Shown here in pieces: positions 3,121-59,934 of a stretch of 64,000 nucleotides of DNA (positions are counted from its first letter, which is position 1; every line of letters starts with the position of its first letter). A program made the position numbers and the translations under genes. This DNA is from Enterococcus rotai (GTDB taxonomy: Bacteria > Bacillota > Bacilli > Lactobacillales > Enterococcaceae), in NCBI RefSeq assembly GCF_001465345.1, contig NZ_CP013655.1:682001-746000 (forward strand), given 5' to 3'. The notes under the pieces are model-generated. The model did no database searches. It worked only from the letters and a program-made list of their open reading frames with translations, and was not told where the DNA came from.

Positions 3121-4308
3121 TTATTTAGTAATTTCAGAAACAACGCCTGAACCAACAGTACGTCCGCCTTCACGAATAGAGAAACGAGTTCCGTCTTCGA
3201 TAGCGATTGGGTGGATTAATTCAACGTCCATTGCAACGTTATCACCAGGCATTACCATTTCAACGCCTTCTGGTAATTCAACTACACCAGTTACGTCAGT
3301 TGTACGGAAGTAGAACTGAGGACGGTAGTTTGTGAAGAATGGAGTGTGACGTCCGCCTTCTTCTTTTGATAAAACATAAACTTCAGCTTTAAATTTTGTG
3401 TGTGGAGTGATTGAAGCAGGTTTTGCCAATACTTGTCCACGTTCGATATCTTCACGTGCAACACCACGTAATAAAGCACCGATGTTATCGCCAGCTTCAG
3501 CGTAGTCTAACAATTTACGGAACATTTCAACACCAGTAACTGTTGTTTTAGCTGTATCTTCTTTAATACCAACGATTTCGATTTCGTCACCAACGCGAAC
3601 TTCTCCACGTTCAACACGGCCAGTAGCAACTGTACCACGTCCAGTGATTGAGAATACGTCTTCGACTGGCATCATGAATGGTTTGTCAGTATCACGAGTT
3701 GGAGTTGGGATATACTCATCAACTGCAGCCATTAATTCCATGATTTTTTCTTCGTATGAAGCGTCGCCTTCTAATGCTTTCAAAGCAGAACCAGCGATAA
3801 CAGGAGTGTCGTCACCTGGGAAGTCATATTCAGATAATAAATCACGAACTTCCATTTCTACTAATTCTAATAATTCTTCGTCATCTACCATATCCATTTT
3901 GTTTAAGAAAACAACGATGTATGGTACACCAACGTTACGTGATAACAAGATGTGCTCACGAGTTTGAGGCATAGGACCATCAGCAGCAGATACTACTAAG
4001 ATAGCTCCATCCATTTGTGCAGCACCAGTGATCATGTTTTTAACGTAATCCGCGTGTCCTGGGCAATCCACGTGTGCGTAGTGACGAGCATCAGTTTCAT
4101 ACTCGATGTGAGAAGTGTTGATCGTGATACCACGTTCTTTTTCTTCTGGAGCGTTATCGATATCAGCATAGTTTTGAGCTTCACCGCCACCGTGTTTAGC
4201 TAACACAGTTGCGATTGCAGCAGTTAATGTAGTTTTACCATGGTCAACGTGTCCAATAGTACCAATGTTTACATGGGGTTTAGAACGGTCAAATTTTTCT
4301 TTAGCCAT
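3121..4308 (-). CDS. tuf: Translation elongation factor Tu
   Basis: This 395-residue GTPase delivers aminoacyl-tRNA to the ribosomal A site. The G motifs are GHVDHGKTT (P-loop, about 19-27), RGITINTSH (switch I), [12 protein letters not shown] (G3) and NKMD (G4, about 136-139), followed by SALKALEGD (G5 region). Domains 2 and 3 are complete, ending [10 protein letters not shown]. Length matches Firmicute EF-Tu. The ATG follows TAGGAGGAAC. A 140-base gap after fusA leaves room for a separate tuf promoter, as is common. It is the last gene of the str cluster. Confidence 0.99.
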
Positions 4309-4448
4309 TTTAAATGTTCCTCCTAAAATATATGAATTTTATTTTATTTGATAGATAGTTTTACAGCTACCTGATCATCTTTAATTAGTTTAACCGAAAT
4401 CCACAGAAAATCCTAGTCATAAATAAGCTTGCGCAAATTTCTTAACTA

Positions 4449-6536
4449 TTATGCGTTGTTTCCGCCATTTTTCTTGATAATTTCTTCTTGTACAGATTTT
4501 GGTACATCTTCATAGTGGTCAAAGACCATCATAAACGTACCGCGACCTTGTGTTGCTGAACGTAATGTTGTAGCGTAGCCGAACATTTCAGCTAGAGGCA
4601 CCATCGCGTTAACGATTTGTGAGTTACCGTGTGCTTCCATACCTTCAACACGTCCACGACGACTTGTAACGTGTCCCATGATATCACCTAAGTAATCTTC
4701 TGGTACAGTGATCGTTACTTTCATCATTGGTTCTAAGATAACTGGATTAGCTTTCTTAGCAGCCGCACGTAGTGCCATAGAAGCAGCTACACGGAAGGCT
4801 GTTTCATTTGAATCGACATCATGGTATGAACCATCGTAAAGTTTTGCTTTAATATCCACTAATGGATATCCAGCAAGAACACCGTTGTTCATAGATTCTG
4901 CCAAGCCTTTTTCAACCGCTGGGATGTATTCACGAGGAACCACACCACCGACGATGGCATTTTCAAATTCAAAACCTTTTCCTTCTTCGTTTGGTGTAAA
5001 TTCAACCCAGACATGTCCGTATTGACCTTTACCACCAGACTGACGTACAAACTTACCTTCTGCCTGAGTTAAAGGCGCACGGAAAGTTTCACGGTATGAT
5101 ACTTGTGGAGCACCAACGTTTGCTTCAACCTTGAACTCACGTCTCATACGGTCTACTAATACGTCTAAGTGCAATTCACCCATACCAGAGATAACTGTTT
5201 CACCAGTTTCAACGTTTGTTTCAACGCGGAATGATGGATCTTCTTCTGCAAGTTTTTGCAAAGCAATCCCCATTTTATCTTGGTCGGCTTTTGATTTAGG
5301 TTCAACAGCTACTTGGATAACCGGTTCTGGGAACTCGATTGATTCAAGAATAACTGGCGCATCCATCGCACATAAAGTATCACCAGTTGTTGTATCTTTC
5401 AATCCAACAGCCGCTGCGATATCGCCTGAGAAGACTTTATCGATTTCTTTACGAGTATTTGCATGCATTTGTAGAATACGACCGATACGTTCTTTTTTGT
5501 CTTTAGAAGCGTTCAATACGTATGAACCACTTTCAAGGACACCAGAATAAACTCGGAAGAATGTTAGACGACCTACGAATGGGTCAGTCATAACTTTAAA
5601 TGCTAATGAAGCAAAAGGAGCTTCGTCATCTGCAGGACGAGTTGTTTCTTCGTCTGTTTTAACGTCGATACCTTTGATTGCATCAATATCAAGTGGTGAT
5701 GGTAAGTAATCAAGTACTGCATCAAGCATTATTTGAACACCTTTATTTTTAAAGGCAGACCCACACATTACTGGGAAGAATTCAACGTTGATCGTTGCTT
5801 GGCGGATACCCGCTTTTAATTCTTCGATAGTAATTTCTTCACCGTCAAGATATTTCATCATTAGGTCTTCATCAGTTTCAGCTACTGCTTCAACTAATTT
5901 TTCACGCCACTCAACTGCTTGATCCATGTATTCTTCTGGAATTTCAGTTTCTTGAATGTCTGTACCTAAGTCATTTGTATAAATTTCAGCTTTCATCGTA
6001 ATTAAATCGATGATCCCTGTAAAGTTATCTTCTGAACCAATTGGTAATTGGATTGGATGAGCATTCGCTTGTAAACGATCATGTAATGAGTTTACAGAGT
6101 ATAAGAAATCCGCACCGATTTTATCCATTTTATTACAGAAAACAATACGTGGAACTTTATAATCAGTTGCTTGACGCCAAACTGTTTCAGTTTGAGGTTC
6201 CACACCTGATTGTGAATCAAGAACGGTTACAGCACCATCCAATACACGTAGTGAACGTTGAACTTCAATAGTGAAATCCACGTGTCCTGGTGTATCGATA
6301 ATGTTTACACGGTAACCTTTCCACTCAGCAGTTGTTGCAGCTGATGTGATGGTAATACCACGTTCTTGTTCTTGTTCCATCCAGTCCATTTGTGATGCAC
6401 CTTCGTGCGTTTCACCAATTTTATGGATTTTACCAGTGTAGTATAAAATACGCTCTGTTGTTGTTGTTTTACCCGCATCAACGTGAGCCATAATACCGAT
6501 ATTACGAGTGTTTTCTAACGAAAATTCTCTTGCCAT
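4449..6536 (-). CDS. fusA: Translation elongation factor G
   Basis: This 695-residue GTPase drives tRNA-mRNA translocation and, with RRF, ribosome recycling. G motifs are visible: [15 protein letters not shown] (about 17-31), [11 protein letters not shown] (switch I), DTPGHVDFT (G3) and CNKMDK (G4). The central [13 protein letters not shown] and the C-terminal domain V residues [14 protein letters not shown] are intact. The ATG follows GGAGAAC. It lies 82 bases after rpsG and 140 before tuf, the conserved str order. Fusidic acid acts on this protein in general; no resistance change can be judged here. Confidence 0.99.
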
Positions 6537-53585: not shown

Positions 53586-55142
53586 GTGACCAATGTTGCC
53601 GATTTGACAACTGTCGAAAAAATTATTGTTTTAGACTTTGGTAGTCAATATAACCAATTGATTACTCGACGTATTCGTGAATTTGGCGTGTTCTCAGAAT
53701 TATTGAGCCACCGAATCACAGCGGATGAAATTCGCGAAATGGCACCAAAGGGAATTATTTTCTCTGGTGGCCCAAATAGTGTTTATGATGAAAATGCGTT
53801 TAGTATCGATCCTGAAATTTATGAATTAGGCATTCCAATTCTAGGGATTTGTTACGGTATGCAACTGATGATGCATAATTTAGGCGGAAAAGTTGAGCCT
53901 GCTGGTAACCGTGAATATGGTAAGTCAGAGCTATCACTTTTGATTCCTGATTCACCTATTTTTAAAGGAACACCTGAAAAACAAATCGCTTGGATGAGTC
54001 ATGGTGACCTAGTCGCTGCTATCCCTGATAGCTTTGAAACGGTGGCAACTAGCGCAGATTGTCCGTTTGCAGCAGTTCAAAATACAGACCGCAACCTTTA
54101 CGGTGTGCAATTCCATCCAGAAGTACGTCATTCTGAATATGGTAACGACTTATTGCGTCACTTTACGTTTGATATTTGTCATTGCGAAGGCGACTGGACA
54201 ATGGGCAACTTCATCGAAATGGAAATCAACAAAATCCGCGAACAAGTCGGCGATAAAAAAGTCCTTCTTGGCCTTTCAGGCGGCGTAGATTCAAGCGTTG
54301 TTGGTGTGCTGTTACAAAAAGCCATCGGCGACCAATTGACATGTATCTTTGTAGATCATGGTTTATTGCGCAAAGGTGAAGCAGAACAAGTAATGGATAG
54401 TTTAGGTGGGAAATTTGGCTTAAACATCATTAAAGTAGATGCGAAAGATCGTTTCTTAGATAAATTAGCTGGTGTTTCTGATCCAGAGAAAAAACGTAAA
54501 ATCATTGGGAACGAATTCGTTTATCTTTTCGATGATGAAGCGACAAAACTTGATGGCATCGACTTCCTAGCACAAGGAACTCTTTATACAGATATCGTAG
54601 AAAGCGGAACTGAAACAGCGCAAACGATCAAATCTCACCATAACGTGGGCGGATTGCCGGAAGATATGCAATTTGAATTGATTGAACCGTTGAATACGTT
54701 ATTTAAAGATGAAGTTCGTGCATTAGGTATCGAATTAGGCATGCCAGAAGCGTTAGTTTGGCGCCAACCATTCCCTGGTCCTGGTTTAGGGATTCGTGTG
54801 CTTGGTGAAATTACTGAAGAAAAATTAGAAATCGTGCGTGATTCTGATGCGATTTTACGTGAAGAGATCGCCAATGCTGGTTTAGATCGTGATATTTGGC
54901 AGTACTTTACTGTGTTACCTGGCATCCGTAGTGTGGGTGTTATGGGTGATGGTCGTACGTATGATTATACTGTGGGTATTCGTGCAGTAACTTCGATTGA
55001 TGGGATGACAGCGGACTTTGCTAGAATTCCTTGGGATGTGTTGCAGAAGATTTCTGTGAGAATCGTGAATGAAGTGGATCATGTGAATCGGATTGTTTAT
55101 GATATTACGAGTAAGCCACCTGCTACTGTTGAGTGGGAGTAA
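53586..55142 (+). CDS. guaA: GMP synthase (glutamine-hydrolysing)
   Basis: This 518-residue enzyme converts XMP to GMP. The class I glutaminase has GICYGMQLM (Cys) and [11 protein letters not shown] (His, Glu). The ATP pyrophosphatase has [13 protein letters not shown], and the C-terminal domain ends [16 protein letters not shown]. The start is GTG. It is core and complete; accessory DNA begins right after it. The 3' end of guaA is a known insertion site for genomic islands in several bacteria. I saw no duplicated guaA end to the right. Confidence 0.98.
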
Positions 55143-55231
55143 AGTAAATATATCACTTGATGTGTAAACGTTTATTTAACAGGATTTGACAGATTATAAA
55201 ATGGATCGAAATGTAATGAATTGATATAGTT

Positions 55232-55271
55232 TCCCGCCAAAATTCCGCCAAGAATTTTGGTGGGATTTTTT
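55232..55271 (+). terminator. Terminator of guaA
   Basis: CCCGCCAAAATTC and GAATTTTGGTGGG form a 13-bp stem with a 6-base loop, then TTTTTT. Confidence 0.95.
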
Positions 55272-55317
55272 GTTGTGAGAGAAAATATTTTATTGAAATT
55301 AGTCATTTACTCAAATA

Positions 55318-55346
55318 TTGTTATTAAATCAAAAATTTGATATAAT
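55318..55346 (+). promoter_or_regulatory. Promoter of the retron RNA and operon
   Basis: TTGTTA (55318-55323), 17-base spacer, perfect TATAAT (55341-55346). Transcription should start near 55353, well before the predicted msr-msd. Confidence 0.8.
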
Positions 55347-55418
55347 TAATGCACGAGATTCAATCAGAATTTCCCTGAATTTTTTTGTTGGATATTAATT
55401 ATTCAACGTATGTAATTT

Positions 55419-55580
55419 GAAACCCATAGCTATTTTTGCCAAGCGTATTCATGTTCATATGTATGCGTTATTTCTTTAATACGTGTTCTCCTATACAGTA
55501 ATTTGCGATAGAAGTATGATATTGTTTAGTAGCAATAAACTGGTACCCTATAGGGCGTGTTATAACAAAAACAGGGTTTT
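55419..55580 (+). ncRNA. Predicted retron msr-msd RNA
   Basis: The layout matches retron template RNAs. a1 is GAAACCC (55419-55425), pairing with a2 GGGTTTT (55574-55580). Directly after a1 is ATAGC; the G at 55429 is the candidate branch G (E. coli retron-86 has CCCTTAGC at this place, from memory). One msr hairpin is at 55442-55469 (AGCGTAT/ATGCGTT with wobble, continued by CAT/ATG). A long msd-like hairpin at 55477-55562 has TAATACG/CGTGTTA, CCTATA/TATAGG, CAGT/ACTG and TTGC/GCAA. The exact a1/a2 limits and msDNA ends are uncertain; the transcript probably runs on into the operon. Seen by eye, not folded by computer. Confidence 0.75.
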
Positions 55581-55617
55581 TTAGCGGAGATTAGAATAAG
55601 CTCTCTATTTCTGATAA

Positions 55618-55666
55618 TTCCTTATAGTAAGCAGGGGGGATGTTTACCATCCTAATATATAAGGAA
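55618..55666 (+). promoter_or_regulatory. Hairpin in front of the small membrane-protein gene
   Basis: TTCCTTATA (55618-55626) pairs perfectly with TATAAGGAA (55658-55666), with an inner GGATG/CATCC stem. The 3' arm abuts the AGGAGG ribosome site, so it may modulate translation or separate the retron RNA from the mRNA. Confidence 0.6.
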
Positions 55667-55679
55667 GGAGGATTCTTTT

Positions 55680-56027
55680 ATGGATAAACGATCTAAAAAG
55701 ACCTTTAAAACTCGTATAGAGCGCAGAAAATCAGAAAAATACCAACGTGCCTTTAAATTGTTTTTGAAAATAATAAAAGGTTATACACTTCTGAAAGGAG
55801 GAGTAGCTCTTTCACTCACTATTTTGAAGTTTTCTGATTTTATAGTGTTAGTCATTACTGACTTAATTGAAACACTTTATTCTAATCTCTATTATTTGAA
55901 AGAGCGTACTACTTATGGATTATACAACTACAAAATTATATGGAATAACTACAAAAAAACATTTGTCCTACATATTAAAAATAGATCAAAAGGTTCTAAT
56001 GAATATAGAACCTCTTTTTTGTGCTGA
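55680..56027 (+). CDS. Small basic membrane protein of the retron operon
   Basis: This 115-residue protein has a very strong ribosome site (AAGGAAGGAGG, eight bases before ATG), so it is likely a real gene. The first 33 residues are highly basic (KRSKKTFKTRIERRKSEK). A hydrophobic stretch at about 36-64 (LSLTILKFSDFIVLVITDLI) should form one membrane helix, perhaps a hairpin of two. The tail is basic and aromatic. It lies between the msr-msd and the RT, and its last 113 bases overlap the RT gene in another frame. No family is recognised. A membrane-acting effector or a helper is possible, like the two-helix effectors of some retrons, but this is inference. Confidence 0.65.
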   Translation: MDKRSKKTFKTRIERRKSEKYQRAFKLFLKIIKGYTLLKGGVALSLTILKFSDFIVLVITDLIETLYSNLYYLKERTTYGLYNYKIIWNNYKKTFVLHIKNRSKGSNEYRTSFLC

Positions 56028-56868
56028 CTCCTTTACAAAAACTAAAAATGAAAAAACGAGAACCTTTTTTAACCCAGATATAACTCAACGAAAAGTACTC
56101 AACCGAATTAACCATTATTTGCAGCAAATAGAAGCTCCTTCCTATGCATACGGTGGGATTAAAGAAAGAAGCTATATTGACAATGCAAAAGTCCATAGAT
56201 CACAAAGTTCTCTCTTATTGATTGATATAAAAGACTTTTTTCCTTCTACAAATGATTTTTATGTCTATAATTTTTTCAAAAATAAGTTAGCCATGTCTAC
56301 AGATGTTGCAAAAATTTTAACTCTTATTGTAACTGAAAAATTTAGCTCATCAAAAAATAGATTTATTCCTCAAGGTTATCCCACCAGTCCACTAATTAGC
56401 CTTTTTTCTTATATTGATATGTTTAGCAAAATTGCAAAAATAGCTAGTTTGAATAACCTTAATTATTCATGTTATTATGATGATTTAACTTTGTCATCAA
56501 ACAAGTACATTGATAAATCTGTATTACGACAAATCAAAAAAATAATTTCTTCCTACAATTTGAAAGTAAATGAAAATAAAACACGAGCATTATTCAATCG
56601 CGGTAGTAAACTTACTGGAGTTATTGTATTACCTGATGGACTTGAAATACCAGGTAAAATACAATTACAGATGATTCAAAACTTTGACTTACTAATGAAA
56701 AGTATTTTTTCAGAAACCCAAATTGATAAAGAAACCATTATTACACTTTGCAATAAAGTTCAAGGCTGCATAGCTTCCATGAAATCTATTGATAAACAAA
56801 GTGGTCATAGTGAAAGAGATTTATCTTTTTATTCAAATAAAGTGAAAGAAATAAAGAAACTCTTATAG
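55915..56868 (+). CDS. Retron reverse transcriptase
   Basis: This 317-residue RT has the usual retron length. Residue landmarks: KTRTFFNPD (48-56, the R.i..P element); NAKVH (90-94), the retron-specific NAxxH of region X; LIDIKDFFPS with D104 as first catalytic Asp; QGYPTSPLIS (153-162); YYDD (187-190) for the other two Asp; and LTG (233-235), equal to the VTG of region Y. It has no maturase or Cas1 domain. The start at 55915 has only a weak GAAAGAG site and overlaps the small gene by 113 bases, so translation may be coupled. A start at MN (56000) would lose the conserved N-terminal helix. It should copy the msd part of the upstream RNA into msDNA primed from the branch G. Confidence 0.93.
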   Translation: MDYTTTKLYGITTKKHLSYILKIDQKVLMNIEPLFCADSFTKTKNEKTRTFFNPDITQRKVLNRINHYLQQIEAPSYAYGGIKERSYIDNAKVHRSQSSLLLIDIKDFFPSTNDFYVYNFFKNKLAMSTDVAKILTLIVTEKFSSSKNRFIPQGYPTSPLISLFSYIDMFSKIAKIASLNNLNYSCYYDDLTLSSNKYIDKSVLRQIKKIISSYNLKVNENKTRALFNRGSKLTGVIVLPDGLEIPGKIQLQMIQNFDLLMKSIFSETQIDKETIITLCNKVQGCIASMKSIDKQSGHSERDLSFYSNKVKEIKKLL

Positions 56869-56883
56869 AAGCTATAGACTACT

Positions 56884-56943
56884 GAAAAGAGTATCATTTG
56901 ATAGCAAAAACTTTGTAGGTTTCCAAGCTATCAGTGTCTTTTC
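56884..56943 (+). promoter_or_regulatory. Two-part inverted repeat between RT and SEC-C genes
   Basis: Outer arms GAAAAGA (56884-56890) and TCTTTTC (56937-56943) and inner arms TGATAGC (56899-56905) and GCTATCA (56927-56933) are all perfect. The last arm gives a T-rich 3' end, so it may be a terminator, or a structured RNA element. The SEC-C gene may then have its own promoter in 56945-57040. Confidence 0.6.
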
Positions 56944-57058
56944 TACTTGTTATTATTTTAATGCTTTCTATTCTTGATACTATCATTACAAGATTTGTTT
57001 AAAAAAATTTTCAATGTACAATAAAAGTATATATCATTAATATGAAATGAGGAAAAGT

Positions 57059-58183
57059 ATGAACCCATACACAATTACACCTTATGTGTTTAAGCCCTAT
57101 GAGCCTTGCCCTTGTGAAAGCGGGAAAAAATACAAATTTTGTTGCTTCGCTAAAAGTAAAGTTATGTCTAATAATAATCAAAACTATAATGCAAAAAGAC
57201 TCAATTCAGAAGCTCATAAGCATTTCAAAGAAACCGATTTCAAAACTTGCTTTGGATTTGATACTAATTGTAATCACGGTTATATAGGTGCTCATTCTTT
57301 GCAGAATAATGGTGTCTTAAATCTAATTGCTGCTGAAAATCATGTCTATATGTTAGAGATAAACTATCAAGTAAATTCTTTAACTCCGAAATTAGAATTT
57401 AAGAAAATTGGAAAAAAGCAAGCAAGTGTCTTTAATGGTTTTTGTAAATATCATGACGAAGAATACTTCAAAATAATAGAGGATGTTCCTTTTGAGGGAA
57501 ATTCTGAACAAAATTATTGGTTCGCTTTCAGAGCACATTGTTTTGAAGCTCACAGAAAATACAGACTTAAAAAAAGTTATTCTTCTTTTTTTAAGAAATC
57601 ACCTGAAGCCACAAGAAACAAACAATTATCGAATAATTATAGAGGAAACGAATTAACTATAAGAGATATGGAAGTTGATTATAATCGTTTTAAATGTATC
57701 TTTGAATCTCATGATTTTGATAAATTAGAAAGTTTTGTTAAAGTTCTACCTTTCAAGGTTGCATTTACAGCTACAACAGCTATTGCTGTATGTGTTGATA
57801 TAGAGGGAAAGGCTGCTGCAGATATTTATAATTATGATGAATCCGTATTTGTTCCAAGTATCTATTTATCTGTAATACCAAAAGAAACTGAAACTATTAT
57901 TATAATTTCCAGATTTAAAGAAGATGAATGCTATGAGAATTTCATCAAATCTTTAAATTCTTGCAAAGATGATAAAAAGATTTTCTCTTTCTTAACTTAT
58001 TGTTTAGCAGAATACAGTGAAAACGTCTATTTTTCTCCACTACTAGTTGATAAAATATTAACTAGTAGTGAAAAAGAACTAATTTCAACTGCTTTTTTAG
58101 GATGTGTTAGCCCAAATCAAGAATTGAGATTCAAAAGCATGATGAGCACATTTAAATTAGATTTATTTAAATACAAACTATAA
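57059..58183 (+). CDS. SEC-C motif protein with a second zinc-binding-like region; possible retron effector
   Basis: This 374-residue protein starts (ATG 57059, six bases after GAGG; an ATG four codons earlier has no ribosome site) with a SEC-C zinc motif, PCPCESGKKYKFCC (C17, C19, C28, C29). A second conserved-looking region has C64, C71 and H73, AHS (78-80), and then FNGFCKYHDEE (C129, H132, D133), which could form another metal site, possibly HNH-like. I recall such layouts in SEC-C proteins of defence islands but cannot name a function. The rest is AT-rich and unlike core genes. It lies 190 bases after the RT and ends before a terminator at 58.5 kb. Confidence 0.7.
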   Translation: MNPYTITPYVFKPYEPCPCESGKKYKFCCFAKSKVMSNNNQNYNAKRLNSEAHKHFKETDFKTCFGFDTNCNHGYIGAHSLQNNGVLNLIAAENHVYMLEINYQVNSLTPKLEFKKIGKKQASVFNGFCKYHDEEYFKIIEDVPFEGNSEQNYWFAFRAHCFEAHRKYRLKKSYSSFFKKSPEATRNKQLSNNYRGNELTIRDMEVDYNRFKCIFESHDFDKLESFVKVLPFKVAFTATTAIAVCVDIEGKAAADIYNYDESVFVPSIYLSVIPKETETIIIISRFKEDECYENFIKSLNSCKDDKKIFSFLTYCLAEYSENVYFSPLLVDKILTSSEKELISTAFLGCVSPNQELRFKSMMSTFKLDLFKYKL

Positions 58184-58819
58184 TATACACTGTTGGAAAT
58201 TGACACTATATTTTTTTATCATATTTAATCCTCTTTTTCTCGATAGATTAATTATAAGCCAATCTTTTTAGCTCAATTAATGTCTCTTATTGACGAACTG
58301 AGAAAAATCCATTTAGTGAAGTAACAATTTTTTGTAGAAACATGCTCTGTACTACAAATTTCAATCGAACATATGAAACTGAATCTTGAATGAGTTATAA
58401 TTTTTATATAGTCTCTTTTTGTAGTCCTAGATGTGATTCAATAAATATGATGAAAAATTAAAACTATCACTTTCTTGTTTTTTAGCTCTGCAAATAGATT
58501 AGAGTAGGAATAATTAAAAAGACCGTGAACCTTTTGATATTGAAAGGTTTTACGGTCCTTTTATATTTATTATAACCATTTTACAACGAATATAAATTTC
58601 ATCTTAGAATGTAAATCATCATCTTCGATATTTGAACGTTCAACTTTTATTGGAACCATACTCAGCCATATGTTTAAATTCTCTAAGATAATATTACTCT
58701 TTCCAATAATAAAGAATAAGAAATCATAACTATTTAATCAATTTTTTAATGTTTTGCCTACTCAAGTTACCATTTAAAATTGTTTACTTTTTTGATAAAC
58801 TCAATTCGAGGTGATAGAC
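58184..58819. other. 636-base AT-rich intergenic region after the SEC-C gene
   Basis: I find no convincing gene. A hairpin TTTGTAG/CTACAAA lies at 58331-58358. A strong terminator is at 58518-58564. An inverted GTTTA/TAAAC pair lies near 58782-58800, just before the HTH gene. The 335 bases between the SEC-C stop and the terminator could encode an RNA. Confidence 0.5.
58518..58564 (+). terminator. Strong terminator between SEC-C and HTH genes
   Basis: AAAAGACCGTGAACCTTT pairs with AAAGGTTTTACGGTCCTTTT with small mismatches. Confidence 0.85.
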
Positions 58820-59767
58820 ATGTATAAAAATAAACTTAAAGAATTAATGTTAGAAAGAAATATCAGTAATCACAGGTTGGCAAAAGAAACTTCAATATCT
58901 CGTCAAGCCATTAGTAAAATTAAAAACAATGAATTTCATGATATTTCAGTTAATGTATTGACTGAGCTATTAGAATATTTTGACATGCCTTTTAACGAAT
59001 TTGGGACAATATATACTCGTGAAGAATGCTTGCAAGCATTACTACCAAATAGAGGTTTTAATCAAAAAAACTTGAATCTACTAGAATCTCTATTTTCTAA
59101 AAATCTTCATATTTCATGCAAATACCATCCTTATTCATCAAAGCAGTGTTTAAATATTTATTCCAAAAACTATTTTAAAAAGTTTTCTTTTTCAGGAAAT
59201 ATGCGAATTAATACTAGTTTATACGGACTAACATTTGAAATAACAGATTTCGATTTATATAGGAAAAGTGAAAATTTTCATTTTGATGATTTCTATGATT
59301 TTTATAAAGATTTCATTATCCAACTAGAACATTATGCGTTAACTTTAGGATTCACCCAAATTGTTATAAACATCAATTCTTATTTTGATAAAAATTTAAA
59401 AATGCAATTAGAGCCCCGAAAAGTAAATTTAAAAGATTTAAATTTACTGATAAATAAATACAAATATTCTAATAGAGAAAATGAATTAATTAAAACATCG
59501 ATCATTAAGCAATTAGGTTACATAGAACATAGCTATAATGATTCCCAACAAAAAAGAAAATATGAAAAAGAGAAGATAAACAATTATGTAGACTGTTTAA
59601 ACCATCTAACCTTTTTTGAAAAAGAACAAAAACGTATTTCTATATTTTCAGAGAAAAATATATATTTTAATCATGATACAAAAAAATTTATCAAACCATT
59701 AAATTCTGAAATTATCCCAAAAGAAAAACTCGAAAAAGATATTAAGCGGCAATGGGAATGGCTATAA
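58820..59767 (+). CDS. HTH protein with uncharacterised C-terminal domain
   Basis: This 315-residue protein starts with an XRE-like HTH (about 1-60: RNISNHRLAKETSISRQAIS, KIKNNEFHDISVNVLTELLE). The ATG at 58820, six bases after GAGGTG, is preferred over a GTG inside that site. The remaining 250 residues are rich in Phe, Tyr, Asn and Lys, for example FDLYRKSENFHFDDFYDFYK, and are not recognised. A charged part (about 245-265) may be a short coiled coil. It may regulate the retron or the adjacent toxin module, or be a stand-alone effector. Codon use is AT-rich, as in the island. Confidence 0.65.
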   Translation: MYKNKLKELMLERNISNHRLAKETSISRQAISKIKNNEFHDISVNVLTELLEYFDMPFNEFGTIYTREECLQALLPNRGFNQKNLNLLESLFSKNLHISCKYHPYSSKQCLNIYSKNYFKKFSFSGNMRINTSLYGLTFEITDFDLYRKSENFHFDDFYDFYKDFIIQLEHYALTLGFTQIVININSYFDKNLKMQLEPRKVNLKDLNLLINKYKYSNRENELIKTSIIKQLGYIEHSYNDSQQKRKYEKEKINNYVDCLNHLTFFEKEQKRISIFSEKNIYFNHDTKKFIKPLNSEIIPKEKLEKDIKRQWEWL

Positions 59768-59795
59768 CAGCATTTCTTTTAGCGTTTCTCTATGC

Positions 59796-59830
59796 TATAC
59801 TAGTCTCGGCAACTTGCCCCCAAAGGGGGG
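59796..59830 (+). promoter_or_regulatory. fst -10 box and ribosome-site-masking hairpin
   Basis: A TATACT -10 (59796-59801) starts RNA I. In its leader CCCCC-AAA-GGGGG (59817-59829) hides the G-rich ribosome site before the fst ATG. GCAACTTGC (59809-59817) is complementary to GCAAGTTGC (59937-59945) after the gene, so the mRNA ends can pair. Confidence 0.7.
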
Positions 59831-59838
59831 TGGTTCCA

Positions 59839-59934
59839 ATGGAAAAATTAATATCGCTAGTCATTGCGCCTATTTTTGTAGGTATTGTTATTAAACTTTT
59901 TTCTCACTGGTTAGATGAGAAAGACAATGACTAA
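59839..59934 (+). CDS. fst: Fst-family type I toxin
   Basis: This 31-residue peptide starts MEKLISLVIAPIFVGIVIKL and ends with an acidic tail (WLDEKDND). It matches the remembered pAD1 Fst toxin in its core SLVIAPIFVG and in LDE followed by acidic residues: one membrane helix and a charged cytoplasmic tail. Overexpressed Fst disturbs the membrane and nucleoid. The gene lies in a full par layout: masked ribosome site, shared terminator, and an antisense RNA gene with direct repeats. A longer reading from 59752 is rejected because it would skip the leader structure. Confidence 0.93.
   Translation: MEKLISLVIAPIFVGIVIKLFSHWLDEKDND

Follow-up and report, generated by a model that had tools for sequence, protein, structure and literature searches.

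The locus studied here raises the question of whether a retron in which a small membrane-type protein stands between the RNA and the reverse transcriptase (RT) is a new kind of system, and of how such a retron might keep its putative effector in check. It lies in a stretch of 64,000 nucleotides from Enterococcus rotai (hereafter "the window"), in which an initial annotation had recognised a retron of unfamiliar layout (promoter, msr-msd, small membrane protein, RT), possibly of a new type or subtype and serving in phage defence. The two open reading frames are indeed present at the place noted, and together with a promoter-like site and a structured leader they form one unit downstream of guaA, which ends at 55142 (Table 1). 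Absent from that annotation was a twin a2-like box at the ribosome site of the small gene, which turned out to be central to our interpretation.

Table 1. Positions, in the window, of the features of the retron-like unit.
Feature	Position	Strand	Remarks
Promoter-like site	55318-55346	+	TTGTTA-17-TATAAT, TG ahead of the -10; 10 of 12 consensus letters
Structured leader, putative retron ncRNA	55353-55679	+	about 327 nt; comprises the msr-msd region and the ribosome-site hairpin; ends deduced from the promoter and the small-gene start
Box alpha (a1-like), UUUCCCUG	55370-55377	+	pairs with box C (8 pairs, 3 of them G-U) and with box B (5 pairs)
msr-like hairpin, 9 bp	55386-55408	+	from the fold; 3' of an A/U-rich linker
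Variable, msd-like region	55409-55571	+	unconserved in sequence
Box B (a2-like), CAGGG	55572-55576	+	5 pairs with alpha; 6-11 in relatives
Ribosome-site hairpin	55618-55666	+	outer stem 55618-55626/55658-55666, apical hairpin, box C between
Box C (second a2-like), CAGGGGGG	55632-55639	+	48 nt before the start codon
Shine-Dalgarno GGAGG	55667-55671	+	directly 3' of the outer stem; 8 nt before the small-gene ATG
Small basic membrane-type protein, putative effector	55680-56027	+	115 aa, net charge +17
Retron-type RT, type VI-like	55915-56868	+	317 aa; YYDD at 56473-56484; from profile matches and tree

The RT is a retron-type enzyme of the RT_VI kind, and not a DRT, Abi or group II RT. It carries the three retron hallmarks claimed for it (NAKVH, YYDD and LTG), and its placement, suggested by the initial annotation as a check, came out on the retron side: the best PADLOC model is RT_VI (222.9 bits, 1.2e-66), the next one is RT_III-A (134.3 bits), and the group II, Drt3a and Drt2 models reach 27-33 bits against 223 for RT_VI. 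The best NCBIfam matches are retron RTs as well, with scores below their cut-offs. RT_VI also ranks first in all ten other RTs scanned (six from the HTH-less clade described below, three from HTH-type loci and one from Bacteroides), with a lead of at least 82 bits wherever a second model passed the limit. The nearest solved chains are Ec86 retron RTs (1.7e-23, about 87 bits), and a Foldseek search with a model of the RT returned retron RTs exclusively at ranks 1-18 (TM about 0.4), which lends weak support because the model is poor (pLDDT 65.5). The start at 55915 is backed by relatives that align from residue 1. The lineage of this RT is thus known, since its best family is PADLOC RT_VI. Outside bacteria, the RT_VI model also matched the archaeon Methanosarcina acetivorans (one of 14 control genomes).

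The window belongs to a clade with 11 further loci across Bacilli. They are L013, on the Enterococcus faecalis plasmid pKUB3007-4 (nine further E. faecalis plasmids have the same identity among the matches listed); L066 (also L017), on a viral contig, with broken small and RT genes; L040 (also L032), from Listeria cossartiae, and its near copy L033; L043 (also L034), from Atopostipes suicloacalis; L041 (also L035), from Streptococcus mitis; L042, from Exiguobacterium aurantiacum; and L060, L063, L064 and L065, from one family. According to the ORF lists, all 11 relatives lack an HTH gene in the interval from leader to RT, and so does the window from promoter to RT. The genomes searched were 105 from the family, 395 from the order and 398 from the class, together with 36, 38 and 151 from three families and 261 from one order (these sets overlap); a genome-contig collection (one scan, five loci), viral contigs (four scans) and plasmid and phage records were searched as well. 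The fifth genome-contig locus, L044 (Enterococcus ureasiticus, 4001-4450), is a relic whose RT, now broken, belongs to the same clade; genes that we take to resemble those of LXG-type toxins lie nearby. The near-identical retrons L033 and L040 come from two bacterial families; a shared insertion site is suggested for them because both have what we read by eye as a sufB-like end within about 1-1.5 kb upstream.

A branch with support of 92/99, recovered in 94% of bootstrap trees, separates the ten clade RTs from the other rows of an unrooted tree with 35 RTs; another (96/83) groups the 11 type VI RTs that have an HTH gene. The active site follows the same division, being YYDD in all ten clade RTs versus YVDD in all 11 HTH-bearing RTs of the tree. 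Rows were left out for L043 and L066 (RTs cut or broken), for L085, and for L014, L074 and L078, where our ORF rule (first M to stop, 230 aa, YxDD-like pattern) gave none; L083, L084 and L086-L088 served as outgroup. These last loci come from a wider search with the RT_VI model, in which ten of 398 genomes of the phylum had a match, namely the window, L080 (with HTH), L081 (without HTH) and seven others. The ORF lists of L083-L088 contain no small basic peptide with HTH before the RT, and L089, from the same search, has stops in frame.

The small protein agrees with its earlier description as basic and membrane-type, with a strong ribosome site. It has one 19-residue stretch of mean hydropathy above 1.6, and at least one such stretch occurs in all 11 clade small proteins measured, versus five of nine HTH-type peptides; the clade proteins are 81-148 aa long and those nine peptides 47-60 aa. 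The 115-aa protein has no match in PADLOC (nor any HTH match in PADLOC, Pfam or NCBIfam), all its Pfam and NCBIfam matches are below cut-off, the 11 clade proteins gave nothing below E 0.012 against Pfam, and tblastn against plasmids returned no match. Its predicted model is a single long helix of low certainty (pTM 0.32). A role at the membrane is therefore putative, and that the protein might be toxic is a guess.

The layout itself is less unfamiliar than had been supposed. In fifteen HTH-type relatives, the HTH gene is preceded by that of a short peptide of about 47-60 aa, which is basic in most cases (L002, L003, L015, L016, L021, L022, L061, L062, L073-L076, L078, L079 and L080, of which L002/L015 and L061/L062 are near copies); in L014, the HTH gene is present and the locus starts 110 nt before it. 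Because of these peptides, and because a 2021 paper (PMC8541194) mentions small auxiliary proteins in type VI retrons, the small gene in itself is not new: the variant consists in the missing HTH gene and the enlarged small protein.

In nine members, the window included, the small gene overlaps the RT gene by 4 to about 190 nt (113 nt in the window, 4-20 nt in six relatives, 76 nt in L033 and about 190 nt in L060). L041 has a gap of 7 nt, in L043 the small gene continues without a change of frame into a truncated RT, and in L066 it is broken. Near the end of the small gene, the Shine-Dalgarno of the RT is itself paired in nine of the 12 members (in folds made without a shuffle control): seven share the same simple hairpin and L013 and L043 have longer folds, while the window and L042 have only a weak hairpin and L041 leaves the site unpaired. 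Such a hairpin would couple translation of the RT to that of the small gene. A terminator-like hairpin followed by a T run, at 55991-56013 within the overlap region, is a possible attenuator.

As for the surroundings of the unit, the site that had been read as a promoter does resemble one, and -10-like elements were seen by eye at the equivalent place in several relatives; we regard it as suggestive because the 2 kb scanned contain 14 promoter-like sites against 11.8 expected. The 3' end of guaA is a variable insertion site (a hot spot), because in all 11 same-genus loci compared by BLAST (L091-L101) the similarity that spans guaA ends at 55138-55148, at the stop codon, with different DNA immediately beyond it, and because a second, partial match to the guaA end is present in three of the 26 genomes searched. 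L101 has an additional 150-nt match to 58502-58651. Rfam search of 54800-57400 detected no retron RNA family; the one family above its gathering score was the Listeria sRNA rli38, at 55128-55273 over the guaA terminator, with a weaker reverse match overlapping it. Beyond the RT, an unrelated SEC-C protein is encoded; we left it out of the system because clade members with listed downstream ORFs carry other genes there. About 1.9 kb past the RT, behind another gene, an HTH-domain protein (58811-59767) has a weak match to PADLOC HTH_VI (2.1e-5) and is probably an ordinary regulator. An Fst-family type I toxin follows at 59752-59934 (above cut-off in Pfam and NCBIfam), and a Staphylococcus haemolyticus plasmid with a type VI-like retron (L073) also has an annotated Fst toxin beside its RT.

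The leader RNA was read in the initial annotation as an msr-msd with a branch G in the context ATAGC and a long msd-like hairpin, and neither of these details survived the comparison with relatives. ATAGC is not conserved at its place, and we rejected it as branch site; an ATAGC does occur in L040 and L033, where it belongs to the 3' strand of the msr-like hairpin. A hairpin after the alpha box can be seen by eye in other leaders too, and the start of this msr-like hairpin would offer a candidate branch G. The long hairpin is not conserved in sequence and its ends could not be fixed; the variable region that holds this place (not alignable in the middle part of a whole-leader MAFFT alignment) is a putative msd. 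After box B, AAGGCUGUUUAAC is conserved in L013 and L066, with near matches in others.

Conservation of another kind appears at the end of the leader. The last 68 nt fold with the same topology in 11 of the 12 clade members (all except L041): an outer stem, a G-rich box on its 5' side, an apical hairpin, and a Shine-Dalgarno overlapping the stem or directly after it. The outer-stem sequences differ (CCTTATA/TATAAGG in the window, CTGTAATT/AATTACAG in L013, CTAAAAATGT/ACATTTTTAG in L042). The z-scores of these folds are modest (-0.45 to -3.9), the Shine-Dalgarno lies only partly within the stem in most members, and in the minimum-energy fold of the window the apical helix takes up part of box C. 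RNAalifold gave a weak result for the C region (-1.13 kcal/mol, 10 pairs, six of which change on both sides), in part because MAFFT misaligns this region, and we therefore used per-sequence folds. The covariation that had been proposed as a check on the hairpins was thus found in the ribosome-site hairpin, and also in the arm pairing.

What was unexpected is this arm pairing. In all 12 leaders (three of them near copies), box alpha has two complementary partners, the near-identical boxes B and C. Over six positions, in registers fixed by eye on the pairing, 71 of 72 pairs are standard in alpha:B, and the figure for alpha:C is the same. Two-sided changes occur at positions k = 2, 3, 4 and 5, each time in B and C alike: C-G becomes U-A at k = 3 in L064, L065 and L041, at k = 4 in L042 and at k = 5 in L041, and U-A becomes C-G at k = 2 in L041. 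When partners were exchanged among nine representatives (Watson-Crick pairs only), matched combinations gave 48 of 54 pairs versus 312 of 432 (B) and 320 of 432 (C) for mismatched ones. Box C starts 44-51 nt ahead of the start codon in every leader, and alpha starts at leader nt 20-25 in 11 of them, the best triple of L033 using another segment (nt 71).

The strength of the triple varies among loci. Out of 60 shuffles, those reaching the observed triple numbered none in L066, L040, L033, L060 and L064, one in L042, two in L041 and L063, three in L013, L043 and L065, and 14 in the window, where another version of the shuffle reached it in 35 of 100. The window is therefore the weakest member of its clade, its alpha:B pairing being just 5 bp long. 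When alpha and C windows were permuted within the clade alone (nine representatives, L033, L066 and L065 being left out because they nearly duplicate L040, L013 and L064), 1,987 of 100,000 permutations were as high, and 3,577 of 100,000 with slightly wider windows, a modest result because most boxes share GCAGGG. Over 19 loci, the matched mean was 15.8 versus 12.1, and none of 100,000 permutations was as high; the ten HTH-type loci alone gave 105 of 100,000. This last value and part of the 19-locus one are biased, because the HTH-type alpha windows were placed by eye near a conserved motif after some of the pairings had been seen (the near copies L061 and L062 were both kept).

Could the alpha/B/C arrangement hold for type VI loci at large? 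We considered this rule and rejected it. In 11 other leaders (ten HTH-type and L077, without HTH), C falls at -44 to -51 in seven, the shuffles are mostly unimpressive (at best one of 60 in L022, and three of 60 in L073, with C elsewhere), and L062 has no triple. Five further type VI-like loci, tested later, yielded no significant triple, the shuffles as high out of 100 being 91 in L080, 31 in L076, 100 and 42 in L016 (two start codons), eight in L021 and 100 in L081. We have limited the twin-box claim to the HTH-less Bacilli clade because these wider loci gave no support.

In nested folds, alpha:B and alpha:C are mutually exclusive, and when each is forced the two states lie within 3.6 kcal/mol of each other in ten of the 12 leaders. 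The energies for alpha:B/alpha:C (kcal/mol) are -69.9/-69.8 in the window, -72.0/-72.2 in L013, -71.2/-73.1 in L066, -74.5/-72.5 in L040, -83.6/-85.6 in L033, -69.8/-68.1 in L043, -57.0/-58.5 in L041, -69.6/-62.5 in L042, -94.0/-92.9 in L060, -69.6/-74.7 in L063, -86.4/-83.3 in L064 and -75.1/-78.7 in L065, so that L042 and L063 prefer one state, by 7.1 and 5.1 kcal/mol. Both forced states are at or above the free minimum (by 5.6-5.7 kcal/mol in the window). The ribosome-site stem is kept under alpha:B in 11 of 12 leaders and under alpha:C in none; alpha:C crosses this stem, and nested folding therefore does not allow the two together.

We tentatively favour the view, at close to but short of an even chance, that the locus is an HTH-less type VI-like retron whose leader RNA acts as a translational switch, the formed retron particle keeping the effector low. 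In its more precise form, about which we have slightly stronger doubts, the duplicated a2 arm at the ribosome site of the effector would compete with the a2 of the retron for one and the same a1, so that the integrity of the particle would be read as translation of a membrane toxin, with no HTH repressor. The alpha:B helix would then correspond to a1:a2, the pairing that the RNA needs to serve the RT and msDNA synthesis, and in this state the ribosome-site hairpin would stay folded and little membrane protein would be made. Were the RT-RNA-msDNA particle missing or broken, alpha would be free to take box C, and this pairing, to judge from the nested folds, would open the outer stem by the Shine-Dalgarno and allow more translation of the membrane protein, which might then damage the cell membrane, resulting in abortive infection. 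The RT would be translated along with the small protein, through the hairpin that hides its Shine-Dalgarno in most members. In this way, the RNA would take over some of the function that perhaps falls to the HTH protein of ordinary type VI retrons. Which way the switch works is a guess, and phage defence by the window locus is something that we infer because retrons in general have this function.

The main rival to the cis switch is a version acting in trans, which we consider unlikely but serious. B and C would be two RT-binding copies, and an RT carrying the msr with alpha would bind C on its own mRNA and repress it (autogenous control by operator mimicry, without any cis switch); losing the RT-msDNA particle would lift the repression. 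The resemblance of B and C, which share 5-8 of 8 positions in every one of the 12 leaders and are each followed by a hairpin, fits this proposal, but sequence alone cannot separate repression in trans from a switch in cis. We find it rather improbable that the locus is simply a type VI-like retron devoid of HTH, with the duplicated box as a leftover and the effector held by protein contact with the RT and msDNA. Such a model agrees with a review (PMC12948488) in which retron effectors are described as held through direct msDNA contact, and with the short alpha:B and unimpressive shuffles of the window itself; it leaves aside, however, that both boxes co-change with alpha in three lineages (L041, L042 and L064/L065) and that the distance from box C to the start codon is nearly fixed. 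Finally, box C might be the true a2, B lying inside the template, in which case the ncRNA would reach the ribosome site and two lengths of msDNA would be possible. This we regard as highly improbable: across the 12 leaders alpha:C is indeed of roughly the same quality as alpha:B, and in the window it is the better of the two, but the a2 arm would then sit a few tens of nt from the Shine-Dalgarno, and the template would include the conserved stretch that follows B (AAGGCUGUUUAAC in L013 and L066).

How does the HTH-less retron with its putative cis switch compare with known systems? According to PMC8541194, a type VI retron consists of an RT, a DNA-binding protein and a small auxiliary protein. 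The window resembles this type in that its RT scores best with RT_VI, in that a small basic protein lies between the RNA and the RT, and in the occurrence of such loci on plasmids, phages and chromosomes. It differs in that the clade, the window included, has no HTH partner gene, in that the small protein is longer and overlaps the RT in nine members, and in that the clade RTs have YYDD, not YVDD, and occupy a separate branch. Two other loci, L077 (Bacteroides uniformis plasmid pBUN2, 1258-2355) and L081 (1284-2436), also have a small basic/hydrophobic ORF directly before an RT of the RT_VI type with no HTH between; they fall, however, outside the Bacilli clade in the RT tree, L081 has no alpha/B/C triple, and the best triple of L077 has its box C outside -44 to -51. 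The likeness to Ec86 is limited to its RTs being the nearest solved sequences, at about 87 bits; we take Ec86 to be a type II-A retron, with an effector and an RNA different from those of the window. Small membrane toxins are also known from type I toxin-antitoxin systems, such as Fst and others. These share with the window a small hydrophobic protein, its translation perhaps set by RNA pairing at the leader, but the window protein has no Fst match, and its RNA lies in cis and is part of an RT system. No account of the mechanism of type VI retrons was found in the literature searched, whose coverage leaves out most subscription papers. The HTH-less form, compact in having two proteins and one RNA, opens this mechanism to experiment: from the pairing one can predict which single substitutions should activate or silence the small gene, and which compensatory pairs should restore it. 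If the cis switch is true, retrons would be able to sense by RNA folding and translation, and not only by protein contact with msDNA.
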